Origin: Albidovulum sp. bin36
Lineage (GTDB): Bacteria > Pseudomonadota > Alphaproteobacteria > Rhodobacterales > Rhodobacteraceae
Direction of reading: 5' to 3'
Assembly (NCBI GenBank): GCA_002238565.1
Contig: MPMP01000004.1
Coordinates: forward strand, 47,075-111,074
Length of the DNA stretch: 64,000 nt
The notes below the pieces were generated by a model. That model did not search any database and was not told where the DNA came from. It worked only from the letters and a program-made list of their open reading frames with translations. The translations under genes were made by a program, and so were the position numbers. Within the stretch, counting starts at the first letter, position 1. Each line of letters starts with the position of its first letter. Shown here piece after piece: positions 27,476 to 44,142 of the stretch.

Positions 27476-28488
27476 CGCGGTTTCGCAATCCGTAGTCTGT
27501 GAATAGCGTCCCGGCCCGGGGTTCATTGTCGGATCAATTTCATTCCTTGATAGGCTGCAGCCTTTAAATCCTACGGAAAAAACTCGGTGCGCCAGAATGC
27601 CCGACCCACCCCGCCGAGGAAGTCTGAACCTCGGAATCTGTCGGAATGTTTAATAAACCGGCTGCGCGCCTAGGCCTGTCGCAGGATTTCAACAACCCAA
27701 AAGTTGGTGGCGGCACTCGGTTGCAGCAGACTCGTCACCATCTTGATCGCGCCGGCCGGACAGGCGCCGGCATGAACAAGATGAACCGCGCACCGCCCGA
27801 ACCCGGAAAGAGGCGGGCAGATACTAGGAACTTGTCAATTGATCCAATTCCCATGCCGAACGCGCTGGCAGAAAGTAGATTTTGGCGGCCTTGAAGGCGC
27901 CGCATTCGGGTTTAGGCGAAAGGATGCGTATTCGGCGAACGGAGATCTGCTTTACATTGGCGGCGCCGTTCAGACCTGCCCGCAGTTTAGTCCCGGTCTC
28001 GTGTCCGAAGCCCCGAATGAATTACCGGTTAACCGTTGTTAAATCGAAGGCCGTCAAAGAACCTTTCTGCAGTGCAGCAGAAGGCTAAAAAAGGAGATGC
28101 GCTAATCGCGGCACCTGATCGAGAATTTTTTCGCGAAAAGGAGTTCCGGGAAATTTCGACGCACAACGAAACGACCGTCGTCAGGTTCCGATCCATAGTC
28201 GATCTCGAGGCGAGAGCGATCGCGTCGCGATGAAGACGGAATATTTGTCGGCGGAACTTGGCAATGGCGAGAAGAATTCCTTCCAATTCGCCACAACGAA
28301 TTCCGAGCGTCCCCGATGCTCCATCGTCAGCGAATACGCTATCGGCGGAGGCTAAATCCCGGCCATTCCTATTTCAATCGACTGCATATAGTATCTTCGT
28401 TGCGCGATCACTCAATTGCTGATAATGTCGGAATGCGCCGCCGGACCGACTCTATCGCGCGGTCATGAAATTCCTAGAGGGCCTGGAA
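27476..28488. other. Gene-poor stretch
   Basis: About 1 kb at the start of the accessory region. Short frames on both strands (for example 28036..28233 +) show no recognisable family. Possibly eroded genes. Confidence 0.35.
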
Positions 28489-29496
28489 ATGAAATTTAGC
28501 TTTAAGCATATAGCAAGAGCGGGAATCGTTATTTTTTCGTTTTTGTCCTTAACCGCATGCAGCGACAGTCCCGGCGGACCCGCAAACGGCTTGCAAGCCA
28601 GTCCAAACGACGCGCCAACTGCGTTTGACGGCTCATATACGATTTCCGACGCCGTATCGGACGGCGTGACCTTCGCGCCATTGTCGGCCGCGATTGTTCG
28701 AGGCTACGGAAAATACCGGACCTCCGCCCTGATGTCCGACGAGAATAGCAGCTACGTCAAATCGGTGTCCTTCGATCCTGAAACGAGCGGAGCCAAAACT
28801 GAGTTTGTTGTCGACGGAAACGTTTTAGCAATCGAATTTGACCGATCGCATGCGGACGGCCGAGCATTTGAGGGCAGAATTCAAGACGGCTATTTCATTC
28901 TGTGGAGCGACACCGGTAGCATAAATCTCGGCGACATCGATTTTTCTAATTCGGAATACAGATTTTTTGAACGCGGAGGATTTTTTGCCGGATTGGACGC
29001 CGACAATGCAAAGTCCTATTTAGGTAGGGTTGTCTACGGATTGCGAACCGAACCGACGGGATTGCCTTCCGGCACAGCTACCTACTCGGGTGATTTTCTT
29101 GGCCGTTGGCACCACGCAAAAGTTATAAGCAACGCGCTCGACCGAGGATATACGCTGGGCGAATTGACACTCACGGCAGACTTCTCAGAGAGCGAAATCA
29201 CGGGGCAAGTCGACAACTTGAGAAACTCGGCGACGCGGAGCGGCTCCGGCGAGCCCCTTCCGGACGGCAGCGTTATATTAATTGACGCCATTTCATTCGA
29301 CGATGGTCAATTCAATGCAAGTATGACCGGCTTTGCACCCGCCGCCGACGTCGCCTACGGCGTAGGAGGATTCCGTGGCGAGTTGCTTGGCGAGTTTTAT
29401 GGCCCGGCAGCGGAAGAAGTTGGCGGTGTTTTTGTTGGATCGCGCTCGACCGATGGCACCGTATGGGAAGGACATTTCGGCGGAAAGAAAAACTAG
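28489..29496 (+). CDS. TbpB-like beta-barrel surface lipoprotein
   Basis: The start at 28489 has AGAGGG 7 bp upstream, preferred over 28465, giving 335 aa. Signal peptide with lipobox (FSFLSLTAC). The C-terminal third carries the transferrin-binding-protein-like beta-barrel pattern: strands rich in G, S and D, ending LLGEFYGPAAEEVGGVFVGS, the hallmark of TbpB-type barrels. An earlier similar strand set is at residues about 190-260 (GTATYSGDFLGRW...). Such proteins sit on the outer-membrane surface and often bind host or environmental ligands. No partner receptor is next to it. Confidence 0.75.
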   Translation: MKFSFKHIARAGIVIFSFLSLTACSDSPGGPANGLQASPNDAPTAFDGSYTISDAVSDGVTFAPLSAAIVRGYGKYRTSALMSDENSSYVKSVSFDPETSGAKTEFVVDGNVLAIEFDRSHADGRAFEGRIQDGYFILWSDTGSINLGDIDFSNSEYRFFERGGFFAGLDADNAKSYLGRVVYGLRTEPTGLPSGTATYSGDFLGRWHHAKVISNALDRGYTLGELTLTADFSESEITGQVDNLRNSATRSGSGEPLPDGSVILIDAISFDDGQFNASMTGFAPAADVAYGVGGFRGELLGEFYGPAAEEVGGVFVGSRSTDGTVWEGHFGGKKN

Positions 29497-31353: not shown

Positions 31354-32691
31354 TTACGGCGCTCTCCACAACCGAGAGATTGGCACGGCATGCAATCGAT
31401 TGCCAAAGGGAATGCTGATTTCGCCGTCATAGAGCACTACGCCGCGAACGAAGCGGTCGCCCAATGCTTGTTCGAGTTTGCGCAGTCCGCGAAAGTCTTT
31501 TGAACTTACAGTCGACGCAGCCTTGATTTCGACGCCGGCGACGGCACCTGACGTCTGCTGGAGTACGATATCCGTTTCAATGCCGTCCTTGTCCCGAAAA
31601 TGGAAGAATTCCGTCGGAATCTCTTGCCAACTCGCTTGCCTGCGCAATTCCTGAAATACAAACGTCTCCAGAAGATTTCCCAAAAGAGTTCTATCTGCCG
31701 AAAGCGCCTTTGCACCGGCATCGAGCAGGGCAGCGGCGAGTCCCGTGTCCTTGAGATGCAATTTTGAACGCTTGACCAACCTTTTCAGGCGATTGCTGTG
31801 CCAAGCCGGGAGTCTTTCGAGAAGAAAAAGCCTCTCAAGAATTGTCACGTAGTCTCCGATCGAAGGCCGGCTGATCTCGAAGTGCGAGGCCAGGTTGCTG
31901 AGGTTGAAAAGCTGGGCCGTATGCGCCGCTGCGGCACGCAAGAGTCTTGGCATGAGGTCGAGTGAGCGGATTTGGGTCAAGTCTCGCACGTCGCGTTGGA
32001 CAATGGATTCCGCGTAGTCGCGATACCAGTTTGCCAGACGCCTCGCGGTCGGTCGCGCCAGCGCTGCAGGATAGCCGCCGGCGACGATCCTTTCGATTAG
32101 CTCTTCCCCGAGGCGGTCGCATCGGAACACCGGGAAGCCTTCACCGAACAATTCGCTCAGGAAGTTCGCATCCGGGCGGGAGGAATCCGACTGACCGGTT
32201 AACTCGTATTGCGTCAATGGATGCAGCTGCACGATTTGCAAGCGTCCCGCCAGAGAATCCGATAGTCGAGGAATGAGCAGAACGTTGGTAGATCCCATTA
32301 GCACGAAGCGTCCCGGCACCCGATGGCGATCTACGGATAATTTGATAGCTTCAAACAGTTCGGGAACCCGTTGAACTTCGTCCAGAATGACGCGCTCGGG
32401 CAACGCGGCGACAAATCCCGCGGGATCGGCTCGAGCGCCGTCTCTTATAATCTGTTCGTCAAAGCTGAAGTAGCTGTAATCCCGGGATTGCCGGGGATTT
32501 CCCCGTATCAGTGGCTCGCCCGACCTGGTCCGGTCGCCGGGCCTATAGAAGTAGCTAGGCGCACAGGTTAACTGGGCGAGCGTTGTCTTGCCGCACTGAC
32601 GCGGACCGTGAATCAGTACGGCCGGCGAATCTTCAAGCGCTTCGACAAGTCTGCTTTCGACGGATCGGGGATAGAAGAACTGATTCGACAT
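31354..32691 (-). CDS. AAA ATPase / DUF4143 protein
   Basis: This 445-aa protein has full family length. The N-terminal P-loop domain shows Walker A (VLIHGPRQCGKTTLAQL), Walker B and sensor (PERVILDEVQRVPELFEAIK, then RFVLMGSTN). After a winged-helix-like segment (FNLSNLASHFEISRPSIGDY), the C-terminal DUF4143 part contains ETDIVL and GVEIKA, a PD-(D/E)xK-like nuclease pattern. Such proteins are common in accessory DNA of bacteria and archaea, and their function is not established. The start codon abuts four 23-bp direct repeats. It is isolated among mobile-element relics. Confidence 0.88.
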   Translation of the reverse strand: MSNQFFYPRSVESRLVEALEDSPAVLIHGPRQCGKTTLAQLTCAPSYFYRPGDRTRSGEPLIRGNPRQSRDYSYFSFDEQIIRDGARADPAGFVAALPERVILDEVQRVPELFEAIKLSVDRHRVPGRFVLMGSTNVLLIPRLSDSLAGRLQIVQLHPLTQYELTGQSDSSRPDANFLSELFGEGFPVFRCDRLGEELIERIVAGGYPAALARPTARRLANWYRDYAESIVQRDVRDLTQIRSLDLMPRLLRAAAAHTAQLFNLSNLASHFEISRPSIGDYVTILERLFLLERLPAWHSNRLKRLVKRSKLHLKDTGLAAALLDAGAKALSADRTLLGNLLETFVFQELRRQASWQEIPTEFFHFRDKDGIETDIVLQQTSGAVAGVEIKAASTVSSKDFRGLRKLEQALGDRFVRGVVLYDGEISIPFGNRLHAVPISRLWRAP

Positions 32692-32783
32692 CGGCTGAAT
32701 GTAAATTCATTTTCCGGCTGATTGCAAGTTAGTGTTCCGGCCAATTGCAAGCTTGCCTATCGGCTGATTGCAAGTTTGCATTC
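32692..32783. repeat. Four tandem 23-bp direct repeats (iteron-like)
   Basis: Four units of exactly 23 bp lie end to end at 32692, 32715, 32738 and 32761. The best-conserved part is CGGCTGATTGCAAGTT; the fourth and second copies are the most alike. The unit closest to the gene is the most diverged (CGGCTGAATGTAAATT). The first base of the array directly follows the start codon of the minus-strand DUF4143 ATPase. The array therefore occupies its 5' leader or promoter, where an autoregulatory protein could bind. Confidence 0.85.
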
Positions 32784-33465
<682 letters not shown>

Positions 33466-33987
33466 TTAGACTTCGAAATACTCGGAGCAGTGCCGTCCGG
33501 CGCCGTCGAGCACGACTACAGCGCGACCACTTCGGGCGTTTGCCCGACGATGTCGGTGAGATGGAGGTTCATCTGGCCCGTATTGGCCCGGTCGCAAATC
33601 CGAGTTTCGGGCAGACCGCCGAGAAATGGTAGCAATTGCGGCAGTGATGGCCGCGCAAGACGGCCGGTCGCGTCCCATTGCGAGCCCGGAGCCTCGGAAG
33701 TACGCCCTTCTGCCCGTCGTTCGCCTCGTCCTGAAACCTGACCTCGTCTTTTTCCAGCTCGCCGTACTTGGGCGCAGACGCTATGTTAAACGCATTGAAA
33801 TTCTGACGGAATTCCGTCTGGTCGACGGGTCCGCCTTCGGATGGACGGAGCGCGGCATCACGCGCCGGAGTTCCTTTGCCAAGCTGCGGCGGCTCTTCGA
33901 CACCCGCAGAGATGGACGCTCCGGTCCTCGAGTGGCGACTTCATTAGCGCCTCCGCCGCCGGCTTGCGGTCGCCGCCCTGACCTCAT
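33466..33987 (-). pseudogene. IS630-family transposase remnant, frameshifted
   Basis: Translating the minus strand in all frames gives consecutive IS630 pieces. First comes PRSVHPKADPSTRRNSVRI (matching the usual HPKADP linker). Next is ELEKDEVRFQDEANDGQKG (first catalytic Asp region) with RARNGTRPAVLRGHHCRNCYHFSAVCP. Then RANTGQMNLHLTDIVGQ and VVVLDGAGRHCS (second catalytic Asp). These lie in different frames with stops, so at least two frameshifts occurred, and the C-terminal Glu region is missing. It is from the same family as the relic at 9.8-10.4 kb but a separate copy. Confidence 0.75.
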
Positions 33988-34383
33988 TTGCCGAAATTAG
34001 GAACAAACTCCGAGTCTTCCGCGAGGCGATTCCAGCGCATCGGACCGACTACAGGCATCTCCGCCGTCGAACATATACCCGGCGCCGGCCGAACCCGAGT
34101 CGATTAATTCTTAACTCTCCCTGAGTCGAAGACTCGCGGCTGGCGACAATGGGAACAAGGTATTTTTGGCTAGAGCATTACCCATGCCTCAAGGAAACGA
34201 AGCAGGGATCGACTTCTTTCGTACTTCGGAACGTACCATTTCTGCATCGCCGGGAAAATGGAATTTGCGGAATATATTGGATGGTCCGCCTAACGCGCAT
34301 TCGCGCATTCAATTCTGTAGCGCCATCGCGAAATTCCTGTTAGTCGGGAACCCTTCGAATCCAAGCTAGGTCAGGAAGAGCGA
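33988..34383. other. Intergenic stretch
   Basis: About 395 bp between the IS630 relic and the GST-like gene. No gene recognised. Confidence 0.35.
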
Positions 34384-39802: not shown

Positions 39803-42178
39803 TCAATTCTCGTATTGCCCTCGCACCCGCTTTCGCTCGGGGTCGAACAGCGGCAGCGCCGCGACTCTCGCTCTCAGGCGTTTCTGGAGGCCGTCGAGCT
39901 GGCCGATATCGACATCCGTACCCGGCTCGGTCATGGTCGCATCCAAGCGAGCCAGCGCAATGACTCGACCCAGAATCGGCGACCGGACGGCTGAAGTTAC
40001 TTCGCCGACCTGGGCCATTCCCTTGCGAACGCTATCGCCCGGCGACGGCACGACCCCGCCTTCCACTTCCAGTCCTACCAATTTGCGAACCGGGTTCCGA
40101 CTCCGCTCCTCTAGCGCCGACCGGCCGATAAAGTCATCGTTCTGGCTGCGCAGCGGCACTGCAAAGCCGATGCCCGCCTCGAACGGATTCGTCTGGTCGC
40201 AGAATTCCTGGCCGGCGAAAATCAGGCCAGCTTCAATTCTAAGCATGTCCATTGCCGCGAGCCCCAGCGGCACGGCGTCGAATTCGCGTCCCGCTTCGCG
40301 AACCGCGTCGTAGACTCCTCCCGCCGCGGAGGGATGGCAAAAGATTTCGTAGCCTAGTTCGCCGGTATAGCCCGTTCGGCTGACGACGCAGGCCGTGCCT
40401 TCGAACCCGCCGATGCGAGCCACCGCGAATCTAAACCTTCCAAGTTCGGCGATCGAAGGCTGCAGCGGCGGAGTCCAGAAAATCTTCTCTAGAATCGCTT
40501 GCGATTTCGGACCCTGGACGGCGATGTTGTGAAGCTGATCCGTCGAATTCCTAACCCACGCGTTCAACTTGCGCTCGTTCGCCTGCCTGCGAAGCCAGAG
40601 ACCGGATTCATCCGCCCCCCCTACCCACCTGAAATTATTGTCGCCGAGACGATAGACCGTGCCGTCGTCGATCATGCCTCCGTGCTCGTAGCACATGGCC
40701 GTGTAGGCGACCTGGCCGACGGAGAGCTTCTTCATATTCCGGGTTACGCAGAGCTGCATCAGGTCTTCGGCGTCGGGACCGGTGATTTCGTATTTGCGGA
40801 GCGGCGAAAGATCCATTATCGCCGCGCGTTCGCGGCATCCCCAGTATTCGGAGATCGTTCCCAGCCCGGTGATGGAATTCGGCAGCCAGTAGCCGGCGTA
40901 TTCTACAAAATCGCGGGTTTCTTTCGCGAAGCTGTCGTGGAATCCGGTCTTTTTCGTCTCTTCCATATCCGCCTCCGGCGACTTTCTGTATCCGATCGAT
41001 TTTTTGAACGCTTCCCGGGCTCCGTAGGTGCGAACCTGAATGTCGGTCGGATTCCAATCGTTGGCGGGATCTACGTCGCAGGGGCAGGCGGTCGATACGC
41101 AAACGAGGTCCGTCAGCGCCCTGAGGAGCACGTAGTCGCCCGGGCGGGACCAGGGATCGTCCATGCCGATCGAATTCGCCGCGTCTAGATTGGTGTTGTA
41201 GAAGAAGTTGATCGCCGGCCAGCCGGCTCGCGGCTCGACGCCGTACTCGCTCAAGCCGGCGTTCATATTGTCGGAGCAGTTCAAATGCCCCGGATAGCCC
41301 AAGTCCTCGTAGTACCGAGCCGTGCATGCCAGCCCGAAGGCGTCGTGGCGCCCGCAGGTATCCTGCACGATTTCGACCAGCGGCTCGAAATCGACGCTGA
41401 AGAACTTGGAATAAAGACCCGGAGCCGGATAGGCGGATCCCGACAGAGTGCGCGTCGCAGTGGGGTCGATTTCCCTTTCCTTGCCGGAATCGAGGCGCCG
41501 GCGCGAAAATGCCTGGAAGTCGGAGCACTCCCGCCCCTGGATGTCCAGTATCTGGATAAACTCGCCTTCGCGCACCGTGAAGCACTTCGCTTCCCCGGGC
41601 TGAATATTGATGTCAATCGACGGATCCGCGAGCGGGTCGGGCGGACGCAGCTTGTCCGGCGCATTCCGCAATCTGGCTCGCCGAACGTACAGAATCAGTT
41701 CGCTCGGGCAATCCTGATTGATTGGACTCATCGGCAGCCCCGGCGCCGCCACGACCAAAGTTCCGGCGCAGTCGGCGGTAAACATCTCCATGTCGCCGGG
41801 TCGCGAGCCGTCGCCTAGAGCGCGAACGGCATCGGCGCCCTCCAGATCGAGTCCGAGCTGCCGCAATCGATTCAGAACCCGCGCGCCGGATGGCCCGCCC
41901 CCGGCAAGGCTGGACAGAATCCCGGCGGCCCGTCCCGCGCCGGTTGCGCCGACCATGCTCGCGCGCGAACTTCCGCCGCGCGCGAAAAATGCAAGTTCGG
42001 CCTGCTGCAGGCCTTCGACGTCAAGAATCCCGAATTCGTCGCCTGCCTCCAGGTCAACGGTTCTCGTCCCTCCTCCGGGTATCGGATGCCGCTCTACGCC
42101 GGGTTCGAGTACCGGAAGCCCCGGGACGATCACTCCCCGCCGTTCGAATGCTGTTTGAAACCGCGCGTTCCCGGCCAT
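39803..42178 (-). CDS. tdm: TMAO demethylase (Tdm): DUF1989 + GcvT-type THF domain
   Basis: The start is the ATG at 42178, overlapping the permease TAA (TAATG); the track ORF continues upstream only as a shadow of that permease gene. The protein has 791 aa. Residues about 185-400 are a DUF1989 domain with candidate Zn ligands C-x12-H-x2-C (ending PGHLNC) and STACPCDVDPANDW. Residues about 420-791 are a GcvT/sarcosine-dehydrogenase-like tetrahydrofolate domain (EYWGCRERAAIMDLSPLRKYEITGP, ASRTGYTGELGYEIF-like). This is the architecture of Methylocella/Ruegeria Tdm, which cleaves TMAO to dimethylamine and formaldehyde. The adjacent tmo-type importer supports it. An extra N-terminal segment looks like a degenerate DUF1989 copy. 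Confidence 0.85.
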   Translation of the reverse strand: MAGNARFQTAFERRGVIVPGLPVLEPGVERHPIPGGGTRTVDLEAGDEFGILDVEGLQQAELAFFARGGSSRASMVGATGAGRAAGILSSLAGGGPSGARVLNRLRQLGLDLEGADAVRALGDGSRPGDMEMFTADCAGTLVVAAPGLPMSPINQDCPSELILYVRRARLRNAPDKLRPPDPLADPSIDINIQPGEAKCFTVREGEFIQILDIQGRECSDFQAFSRRRLDSGKEREIDPTATRTLSGSAYPAPGLYSKFFSVDFEPLVEIVQDTCGRHDAFGLACTARYYEDLGYPGHLNCSDNMNAGLSEYGVEPRAGWPAINFFYNTNLDAANSIGMDDPWSRPGDYVLLRALTDLVCVSTACPCDVDPANDWNPTDIQVRTYGAREAFKKSIGYRKSPEADMEETKKTGFHDSFAKETRDFVEYAGYWLPNSITGLGTISEYWGCRERAAIMDLSPLRKYEITGPDAEDLMQLCVTRNMKKLSVGQVAYTAMCYEHGGMIDDGTVYRLGDNNFRWVGGADESGLWLRRQANERKLNAWVRNSTDQLHNIAVQGPKSQAILEKIFWTPPLQPSIAELGRFRFAVARIGGFEGTACVVSRTGYTGELGYEIFCHPSAAGGVYDAVREAGREFDAVPLGLAAMDMLRIEAGLIFAGQEFCDQTNPFEAGIGFAVPLRSQNDDFIGRSALEERSRNPVRKLVGLEVEGGVVPSPGDSVRKGMAQVGEVTSAVRSPILGRVIALARLDATMTEPGTDVDIGQLDGLQKRLRARVAALPLFDPERKRVRGQYEN

Positions 42179-44142
42179 TAGTTCAATCCCAGCGCCTTTT
42201 TCCTTGAATCCGACCATTTCATAATGAGGTGATCGGCCATTAACCCCATGAAAGCGACGCAAAAGCCCAGCACGAGGCCCTTTCCGACATCGGTCGACGA
42301 CAGCGCCCGCTGCATCTCCTGGCCGAGATCCTGAGTGCCGATAAATGCCGCGATGATGACCATGAACAGCGAAAACATGATCGTCTGGTTCAGGCCGACC
42401 GCAATCGTCGGCAGAGCCATCGGGAAGCGCACCTTCCAAAGCTGCTGCCAATAGCTGGCGCCGCACATGGCCGATGACTCGACCAACTCGCTCGGAGTGC
42501 CCTTGAGCCCCTCGATCGTATAGCGCGTGAAGGGAACCAGCGCGAAGGTTATAACCGCGCCGATCGCCGCCACATCGTTGACGCCGAAAAGCATGACTAC
42601 GGGTATCAAGTATATGAAGCTGGGAAAAGTCTGCGCCGTGTCGCACACGAGCAACGCAAATTTGGCTCGAGATTCCCTGCGCGAAGCCCAGATTCCGAGC
42701 GAAAGGCCGATCGCGACGGCTATTAGAACCGAAAAAGTAATCATGTAGGCGGTTATCATGGCCCTGTCCCACCAGCCCGACATGGCGATCATGCCGAAAA
42801 ACCCGAGACAGACCAGCGCCGACCTCCACCTGCCTACGATCCAGCCCAAGCCGAACCAAAATGCAAGGACCGAGACGAAGGGAAGCCAAAGATAGGCGTC
42901 CCGCATCGGAATGAATACGAATCGAATCAAAAATCCCCGCAGCCACTGGGTAACGGGATCCACTAGCCGCACGAACCAGTCCACTAGAAAATCAGCTTCC
43001 CTGGATACCGTTAGCGCGTGCTTGCGCGGGATTTGATCGGCCAGAGGCCACGCAAGCGAAAGCGCAACGGTCCCCGCCGCCAGCGCCGCCCACGCGACCA
43101 GTATCCAGTGGCGGGCGTACCACGGAGTTCCGCGTTCGAAATGCTTCGGCTGCTTTACGACCCATGCCTTCGAGCATCGGTCCAGCATGACCGCAATGAG
43201 GACAATGGTTATACCGATTTCCAGGGACCGTCCGATCTTTAAGCCCTGAAGCAATTGCAGCAGCTTTTGCCCTAGCCCCGGCATGCCGATGAAACTCGCC
43301 AGAACCACCATGGCTAGACACTGCATGATGACCTGGTTAACTCCCAGAAGGATTTCCGTCCTGGCGGAGGGAATGCGAACGTGCCTAAGAAGCTGCCAGC
43401 CGCTCGAGCCGCACATTTTTCCGCTTTCAACGATTTCGGGGGCAACTTTCTTCATGCCCAGAAGCGTCATGCGAATCATCGGAGGCGCGGCAAAAATCAT
43501 CGTAACGATCGCCCCCGCCTTCGGCCCGACTCCGATGAAAACGACCACCGGTATCATATAGGCGAAATGCGGAAGGGACTGCGCGATATTGAGAAACGGG
43601 TTGATAATCCTTTCGACGTATTGCCTCCTCCAGGCCGCTATGCCCAAAGCAATACCGAGAAGAGCCGACACCGGAGCCGCGACCACGATGACCGACAGAG
43701 TCTCCATCGCCCACTTCCACTGCCCCATGAGGGCGATCCAGACGAAAGTCCCGCCGCATAGCAGCGCGAGGCGCCAGCCGTTCAGCGCATAGCCGATTAC
43801 GGCGGCGGTCACTGCAATGGTCGTCCAGGGCAGAGGCCCAATTCTCGGCCACCTGTTCCGACCGTAAAGCAAGTTGCCCGTTACATCTAGAAACCATTCG
43901 ACGATCGAAGCGAAGGCCCGGGTCGCGTAGATAAATCCCAAATCGTCCTTAATGAAGCCAAATGCGGCGTTTATCCAGTCCGCGAACGGCAAGACGAGCC
44001 AATCCGGCGGCCTGACGAGAGACTCCGGGAGCTGGAACCGGAGCAGGGCCACCGCCGCCGCCGCCGCGATAATGAATTGCCCGATCCGAGCATCGTCGAA
44101 CCTGAAGTCGCTACGGAGTGTTTCTGTCGGCGCGATATTCAC
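42178..44142 (-). CDS. tmoW: TMAO ABC transporter double-length permease (TmoW-like)
   Basis: This 654-aa protein has two complete ProW-type permease halves in one chain. The first half EAA-type loop is in PEIVESGKMCGSSGWQLLRHVRIPSARTEIL. The second is in SELVESSAMCGASYWQQLWKVRFPMALPTI. Each half has about six membrane segments. The fused arrangement is typical of TmoW/OpuW-type betaine and TMAO importers. Two bp separate it from the ATPase gene, and its stop overlaps the tdm start. A glycine betaine transporter is the main alternative, but tdm next door favours TMAO. Confidence 0.85.
   Translation of the reverse strand: MNIAPTETLRSDFRFDDARIGQFIIAAAAAVALLRFQLPESLVRPPDWLVLPFADWINAAFGFIKDDLGFIYATRAFASIVEWFLDVTGNLLYGRNRWPRIGPLPWTTIAVTAAVIGYALNGWRLALLCGGTFVWIALMGQWKWAMETLSVIVVAAPVSALLGIALGIAAWRRQYVERIINPFLNIAQSLPHFAYMIPVVVFIGVGPKAGAIVTMIFAAPPMIRMTLLGMKKVAPEIVESGKMCGSSGWQLLRHVRIPSARTEILLGVNQVIMQCLAMVVLASFIGMPGLGQKLLQLLQGLKIGRSLEIGITIVLIAVMLDRCSKAWVVKQPKHFERGTPWYARHWILVAWAALAAGTVALSLAWPLADQIPRKHALTVSREADFLVDWFVRLVDPVTQWLRGFLIRFVFIPMRDAYLWLPFVSVLAFWFGLGWIVGRWRSALVCLGFFGMIAMSGWWDRAMITAYMITFSVLIAVAIGLSLGIWASRRESRAKFALLVCDTAQTFPSFIYLIPVVMLFGVNDVAAIGAVITFALVPFTRYTIEGLKGTPSELVESSAMCGASYWQQLWKVRFPMALPTIAVGLNQTIMFSLFMVIIAAFIGTQDLGQEMQRALSSTDVGKGLVLGFCVAFMGLMADHLIMKWSDSRKKALGLN

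Follow-up and report, generated by a model that had tools for sequence, protein, structure and literature searches.

The 64,000-nucleotide stretch of Albidovulum sp. bin36 DNA analysed in this work (contig MPMP01000004.1; hereafter the window) raises the question of what a short array of direct repeats is doing immediately in front of the gene for an AAA_14-DUF4143 ATPase, and which protein reads it. The four 23-bp repeats are one case of a promoter repeat array that fronts an ATPase-nuclease gene across many phyla, and the comparisons presented here indicate that this gene, which encodes a defence candidate of the PADLOC PDC-S01 type, is most likely bound and controlled by its own product. 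The four copies start at 32692, 32715, 32738 and 32761 with an exact spacing of 23 bp (range 32692-32783), the array is the top-scoring one in the window with Tandem Repeats Finder (score 75, period 23), and its last unit stops one base before the ATG (32691) of the minus-strand gene, which confirms the four tandem units abutting the start codon that an initial annotation of this DNA had described. The gene-strand 16-mers of the four units are given in Table 1, and their core is TTGCAATCAGCCG with variants. The array exceeded dinucleotide shuffles with P ~0.01, the floor of 100 shuffles, and the exact unit pattern occurs in the 5.6-Mb genome at this locus only. When the genome was scanned for two units 23 bp apart, with as many as 3 mismatches allowed, this locus and one chance place with 3 mismatches were found, and the reversed control pattern gave no matches in the same scan.

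CRISPR (clustered regularly interspaced short palindromic repeats) arrays consist of identical repeats of ~24-40 bp with unique spacers between them. A CRISPR array was rejected for this locus, given the 23-bp pitch, the 13-bp core that differs between copies, and the spacers of ~10 bp. The ~1.6 kb upstream of the array (window ~32800-34380) contains no convincing gene and may represent decayed coding sequence.

Upstream sequences were collected for homologues from three sources, namely members of the same taxonomic family, 80 genome contigs spanning many phyla, in which the homologues were found with an alignment query, and viral contigs. With a lag-based repeat test against dinucleotide shuffles (significance at P <= 0.05), tandem repeats were detected upstream of 73 out of 121 homologues, and the best lag among the 73 was 22 bp in 38, 23 bp in 26 and 44 bp in 6. 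Among the controls, 12 out of 117 downstream regions and 16 out of 162 regions lying 5' of other genes in the same loci were positive, and their lags were scattered. Arrays with a pitch of 22 or 23 bp were found in the same place and orientation in homologues down to ~30-40% identity and in many phyla. The initial annotation had suggested searching for the unit elsewhere and upstream of other DUF4143 genes, and had named a lack of repeats in front of close homologues as the outcome that would speak against its proposal; the opposite was observed.

In a protein tree, the arrays fall mostly within one large clade and their pitch is clade-specific, being 23 bp in the group of the window protein and several others, and 22 bp in a large derived group. 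Most arrays have 2-6 units and stop short of the start codon by a median of ~15 bp. They share a common register with the unit consensus TTNCAATTNGNCG, which occurs in one orientation only relative to the gene. Sister clades are without direct arrays and have promoter-proximal inverted repeats instead (22 out of 37, compared with 5 out of 58 in the array clade, at P <= 0.05), several of which have half-sites of the array-unit type, such as TTACAATTCCACG in L112. Near-perfect inverted repeats just 5' of the start codon were also noticed among the upstream regions L105-L153 outside the array clade (for instance, L110, L112, L117, and L148), and in a DUF4143 subfamily of ~390 aa from the same taxonomic family (L027, L028, L030, L031, L032, and L043) a conserved block, CTTGCAAATCTTCCATNNNATGGAGTAA, abuts the start codon. 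No report of such arrays was found in open-licence papers on DUF4143, COG1373, PF13635/AAA_14, and promoter repeats.

An operator bound by the product of its own gene is expected to covary with that protein, and this is what the comparison of homologues points to. Motif divergence was compared with protein divergence after removal of whole-protein divergence, with motifs simulated along the tree as the null and with the maximum taken over residue windows. Motif divergence was tracked most closely by residues 356-376 (partial r = 0.41; window-maximum P = 0.003), and weaker signals were obtained at residues 267-281 and 294-312. The 5' half of the unit tracked residue 274 (z = 4.4; over all columns, P = 0.027) as well as residue 276, which lie at the start of the recognition helix of a helix-turn-helix (HTH), and the 3' half tracked residue 368 (r = 0.62, z = 6.2, P = 0.003), located in the turn of the hairpin formed by residues 360-379. 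G at unit position 10 was present in all 44 arrays with K or R at residue 368 and in none of the 12 with other residues, and C at unit position 11 was present in 11 out of 11 arrays with R368 and in 6 out of 33 with K368 (eight parsimony changes of R, P = 2e-4). In a held-out test with 25 newly fetched loci, the motif model, which was seeded with the consensus, recognized 19 arrays, and all 19, from loci related to the training loci, obeyed both the K/R-G10 and the R-C11 rules. New combinations were among them, namely Q368 with AAACG (L212), R368 with TGCCG (L224), and A368 with TTACG (L226), the case of L212 being an example of an independent one. Because the sequence of the unit covaries with the ATPase's own residues, binding of the ATPase to its own units is strongly supported by comparison. 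Self-regulation of the ATPase, at which the initial annotation had hinted, thus gained support in its binding part from the arrays in front of homologues and from the covariation, and repression by the ATPase of its own promoter is the part that we infer.

We therefore consider it probable that the repeats form an operator array read by the protein that is encoded directly downstream, and that occupancy of this array represses the gene. The 5' half of the unit would be read by the recognition helix of the HTH, and the 3' half (GNCG) by the turn of the beta-hairpin near residue 368 in the C-terminal PD-(D/E)XK domain. Several molecules may assemble head to tail at the 22- or 23-bp pitch, probably via their ATPase domains. 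The placement on one face of the DNA that had been proposed from the 23-bp period, as a basis for cooperative binding, was not borne out, for a step of 23 bp rotates by ~69 degrees; neighbours at a pitch of 22-23 bp would be turned by ~34-69 degrees, so that the assembly would wind round the DNA. Since it lies over the promoter and extends to the start codon, the array when occupied would repress the gene, and the defence candidate would thereby be kept at a low level. If the bound assembly were disturbed or titrated, for example by infection, the defence candidate might be released.

The location of the promoter bears on this mechanism. A -10-like hexamer, TACATT, lies within the gene-nearest unit, and with a -10 element at this site transcription would begin at the ATG or close to it, giving a leaderless transcript. 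A -10-like hexamer with at most 1 weighted mismatch ending 4-9 nt 5' of the start was found in 8 out of 58 array loci, compared with 1.7 +- 1.1 in shuffles and 0 out of 82 for other genes, and when two mismatches were allowed, as is needed for the window, the number was 13 out of 58 compared with 7.5 +- 2.4. These numbers suggest leaderless transcripts in a subset of the array loci, with the array lying over the promoter. Several observations weigh against the self-read operator. A clear leaderless -10 element is seen in only a subset of loci, a generic promoter and terminator scan with the sigma-70 consensus was negative, giving no full sigma-70 promoter at the window locus, and no array can be recognized in certain loci of the array clade (L080, L085, L096, L225, and L227). 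Furthermore, the association of K/R368 with G10 amounts to only three parsimony changes, residue column 368 was picked from ~400 columns, and the window protein itself breaks the weaker rule, having K368 together with C at position 11.

Alternatively, the protein may bind the array as a loading or nucleation platform, much as origin repeats serve DnaA or Orc, or as an address that governs nuclease activity, with gene regulation being secondary. The strict head-to-tail pitch fits an ordered assembly, the PD-(D/E)XK residues are conserved, and the modelled protein is matched best in fold by a Walker ATPase (2qen), by STAND proteins of the Apaf-1/Avs type, and by Cdc6/Orc1 with origin DNA (rank 6); for the initiator comparison, the template modelling (TM) scores are low (query-normalised TM ~0.2-0.4). 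We nevertheless regard this explanation as unlikely, since the array is always 5' of its own gene, in one orientation and with a median distance of ~15 bp to the start codon, and since related clades place ordinary inverted repeats at the same promoter position, as operators would.

The occurrence of both inverted and direct layouts is typical of regulator sites in general and would equally suit another host transcription factor binding the array. This is hardly probable, because the motif varies together with the ATPase's own residues, is kept across phyla with a core that changes with the protein, and occurs in chromosomes almost only in front of a DUF4143 gene. Still less credit can be given to control at the RNA level by repeats in the mRNA leader: in some loci, such as L044, a TACAAT -10 candidate noticed by eye in an upstream unit would cause the downstream units to be transcribed, but the window array extends right up to the ATG and has its -10 candidate in the last unit, and the pitch near two helical turns and the HTH covariation indicate duplex DNA. 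Lastly, slippage does produce tandem duplications, but a neutral duplication without function has next to no probability, as it is contradicted by the dozens of loci whose independent arrays differ in core but agree in position, pitch and orientation, and by controls without them.

A search of 399 genomes of the phylum detected 8 two-unit arrays, compared with 0 for the reversed control. Six of these directly precede the gene, L177, a near-duplicate of L184, runs up to the edge of its contig, and L178 has no such gene in its vicinity; with the gene or its contig end downstream, 7 out of 8 were counted as gene-associated. In viral contigs, the two-unit pattern gave 11 stretches with a pitch of 22 and 4 with a pitch of 23, compared with 1 each at the off-register pitches of 20 and 25 (15 versus 2). 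Only one of the array stretches has a DUF4143 gene, most of the others are intergenic, and a few represent the same phage repeated. Two-unit phage arrays without a DUF4143 gene include L155-L169 and FR719956 18881-18915, and in two unrelated phages (L155 and L157) the array adjoins a terminator-like hairpin. One such array is a 29-bit pair, present in both Roseovarius Plymouth podovirus 1 and Roseovarius sp. 217 phage 1, that overlaps with the orf38 end and is followed by a terminator-like hairpin; the core of the pair, TTTCAATTGGTCG, is the core found upstream of alphaproteobacterial homologues (L016-L018). It is possible that such orphan arrays serve as decoys, although this idea is weakened by the lack of conservation of the Roseovarius pair in related phages of Ruegeria and Dinoroseobacter. 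The neighbours of the orphan arrays belong to no informative family, and a pattern scan of viral contigs for TCCG-type arrays (14-nt unit, 8-nt gap) found none. As a more speculative extension, which we hold only tentatively and think doubtful as a whole, the array would be the site at which a widespread immune ATPase is controlled, the orphan two-unit arrays of some phages would be DNA decoys that titrate or misdirect it, and the nuclease-fold domain would have been co-opted into a two-part DNA reader whose specificity is predictable from residues 274/276 and 368.

The open reading frame (ORF) of 445 aa is intact and matches the Pfam families AAA_14 (PF13173, E 4e-22) and DUF4143 (PF13635, E 1.5e-45), passing the curated cut-offs of both hidden Markov models (79 bits with a cut-off of 27, and 155 bits with a cut-off of 28.1, respectively). 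The PADLOC profile PDLC04790 (PDC-S01) covers residues 6-443, the whole length of the protein, with E 3e-154. S01, an ATPase fused to a PD-(D/E)XK domain, is a candidate system reported to take fourth place in frequency among defences across prokaryotes; validation is pending for most PDCs, and neither a trigger nor a target nor any regulation is known for PDC-S01 (PMC12988326). A search of open-licence papers gave no experiment on its anti-phage activity. The AlphaFold model (mean predicted local distance difference test score 92.9) consists of an ATPase domain, an HTH with a following beta-rich segment, and a PD-(D/E)XK-like domain, with HTH helices at residues 244-256, 264-271 and 275-287, and PD-(D/E)XK strands at 360-367, 372-379 and 384-389. 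In an alignment of 55 sequences, E372, D374 and K390 are invariant and E388 is nearly invariant; conserved acidic residues with E-x-K after a beta-hairpin, as in the PD-(D/E)XK fold, are thus present.

The neighbouring genes in the 111-kb contig (ABC-transporter, arginase-family, GST and similar genes) are metabolic, with no visible defence island. No second small gene was seen directly beside the ATPase gene on the same strand, small ORFs not having been assessed as genes. Further DUF4143 copies in this genome (G000 contigs C10 and C44; L010, L011, and L013) and the copies in G014 of the same genus (L026 and L042) contain stops or broken frames, and therefore the locus seems to be often lost. 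Elsewhere in the window, a 1047-aa ORF (39803-42946, minus strand) combines DUF1989 and glycine-cleavage T-protein domains, and a lipoprotein-like ORF (28465-29496, plus strand) has a TbpB-type beta-barrel domain.

Table 1. Coordinates of the repeat units, the candidate promoter element and the ATPase gene in the window.
Feature	Position	Strand	Sequence	Remarks
Unit 1	32692..32707	-	AATTTACATTCAGCCG	Nearest to the gene; contains the -10-like TACATT
Unit 2	32715..32730	-	AACTTGCAATCAGCCG	
Unit 3	32738..32753	-	AGCTTGCAATTGGCCG	
Unit 4	32761..32776	-	AACTTGCAATCAGCCG	
Degenerate fifth unit, core	32784..32796	-	TTTCTTTTGGCCC	Same 23-bp register, beyond 32783; paired with unit 4 at 2 mismatches
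Putative -10-like hexamer	32698..32703	-	TACATT	Within unit 1; two mismatches
AAA_14-wHTH-DUF4143/PD-(D/E)XK protein (wHTH, winged HTH)	31354..32691	-		445 aa; PADLOC PDC-S01
Walker A	32581..32607	-	GPRQCGKTT (protein)	Residues 29-37
HTH helices	31831..31902	-		Residues 264-287, including covarying 274 and 276
Beta-hairpin of the PD-(D/E)XK domain	31555..31614	-		Residues 360-379, including covarying 368 and invariant E372/D374

A conserved DNA site together with a predicted residue-to-base code provides a direct handle on a very common and uncharacterised anti-phage candidate. The code names the DNA to be used in binding tests, the residue swap that should change specificity, and the site at which a reporter is expected to respond. 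Furthermore, operators become predictable for thousands of homologues, and phage genomes can be searched for matching decoys.

Several known systems resemble parts of this arrangement. The whole-length profile match places the window protein, with its ATPase and PD-(D/E)XK domains, alongside PADLOC PDC-S01, but the window gene lies among metabolic genes rather than in a defence island. Plasmid iterons, which are bound by winged-helix Rep proteins, are likewise direct repeats of ~20 bp. As with them, the window array adjoins the gene for a wHTH protein that may bind the repeats and thereby regulate itself, but the locus is a chromosomal single gene encoding an AAA ATPase with a PD-(D/E)XK domain and has no origin features. 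A plasmid iteron system was rejected, as Pfam gives AAA_14/DUF4143 only and no Rep, and the contig carries the genes named above. The likeness to iterons or toxin-antitoxin operators noted in the initial annotation thus holds in that the array would work similarly, whereas it is not an iteron set and appears not to be the operator of a two-gene toxin-antitoxin system. With Orc1/Cdc6 and DnaA on origin repeats, the locus has in common an AAA ATPase with an HTH on ordered repeats, but the window protein has a nuclease-fold domain, its TM-scores are low, and no link to replication is apparent. Operators of type II toxin-antitoxin and restriction-modification systems share with it promoter-overlapping sites that are probably bound by the encoded protein, and are matched by the palindromic operators of the sister clades; the window system differs in apparently consisting of one gene with direct repeats of fixed pitch, whose product, the putative effector, would itself read the DNA.
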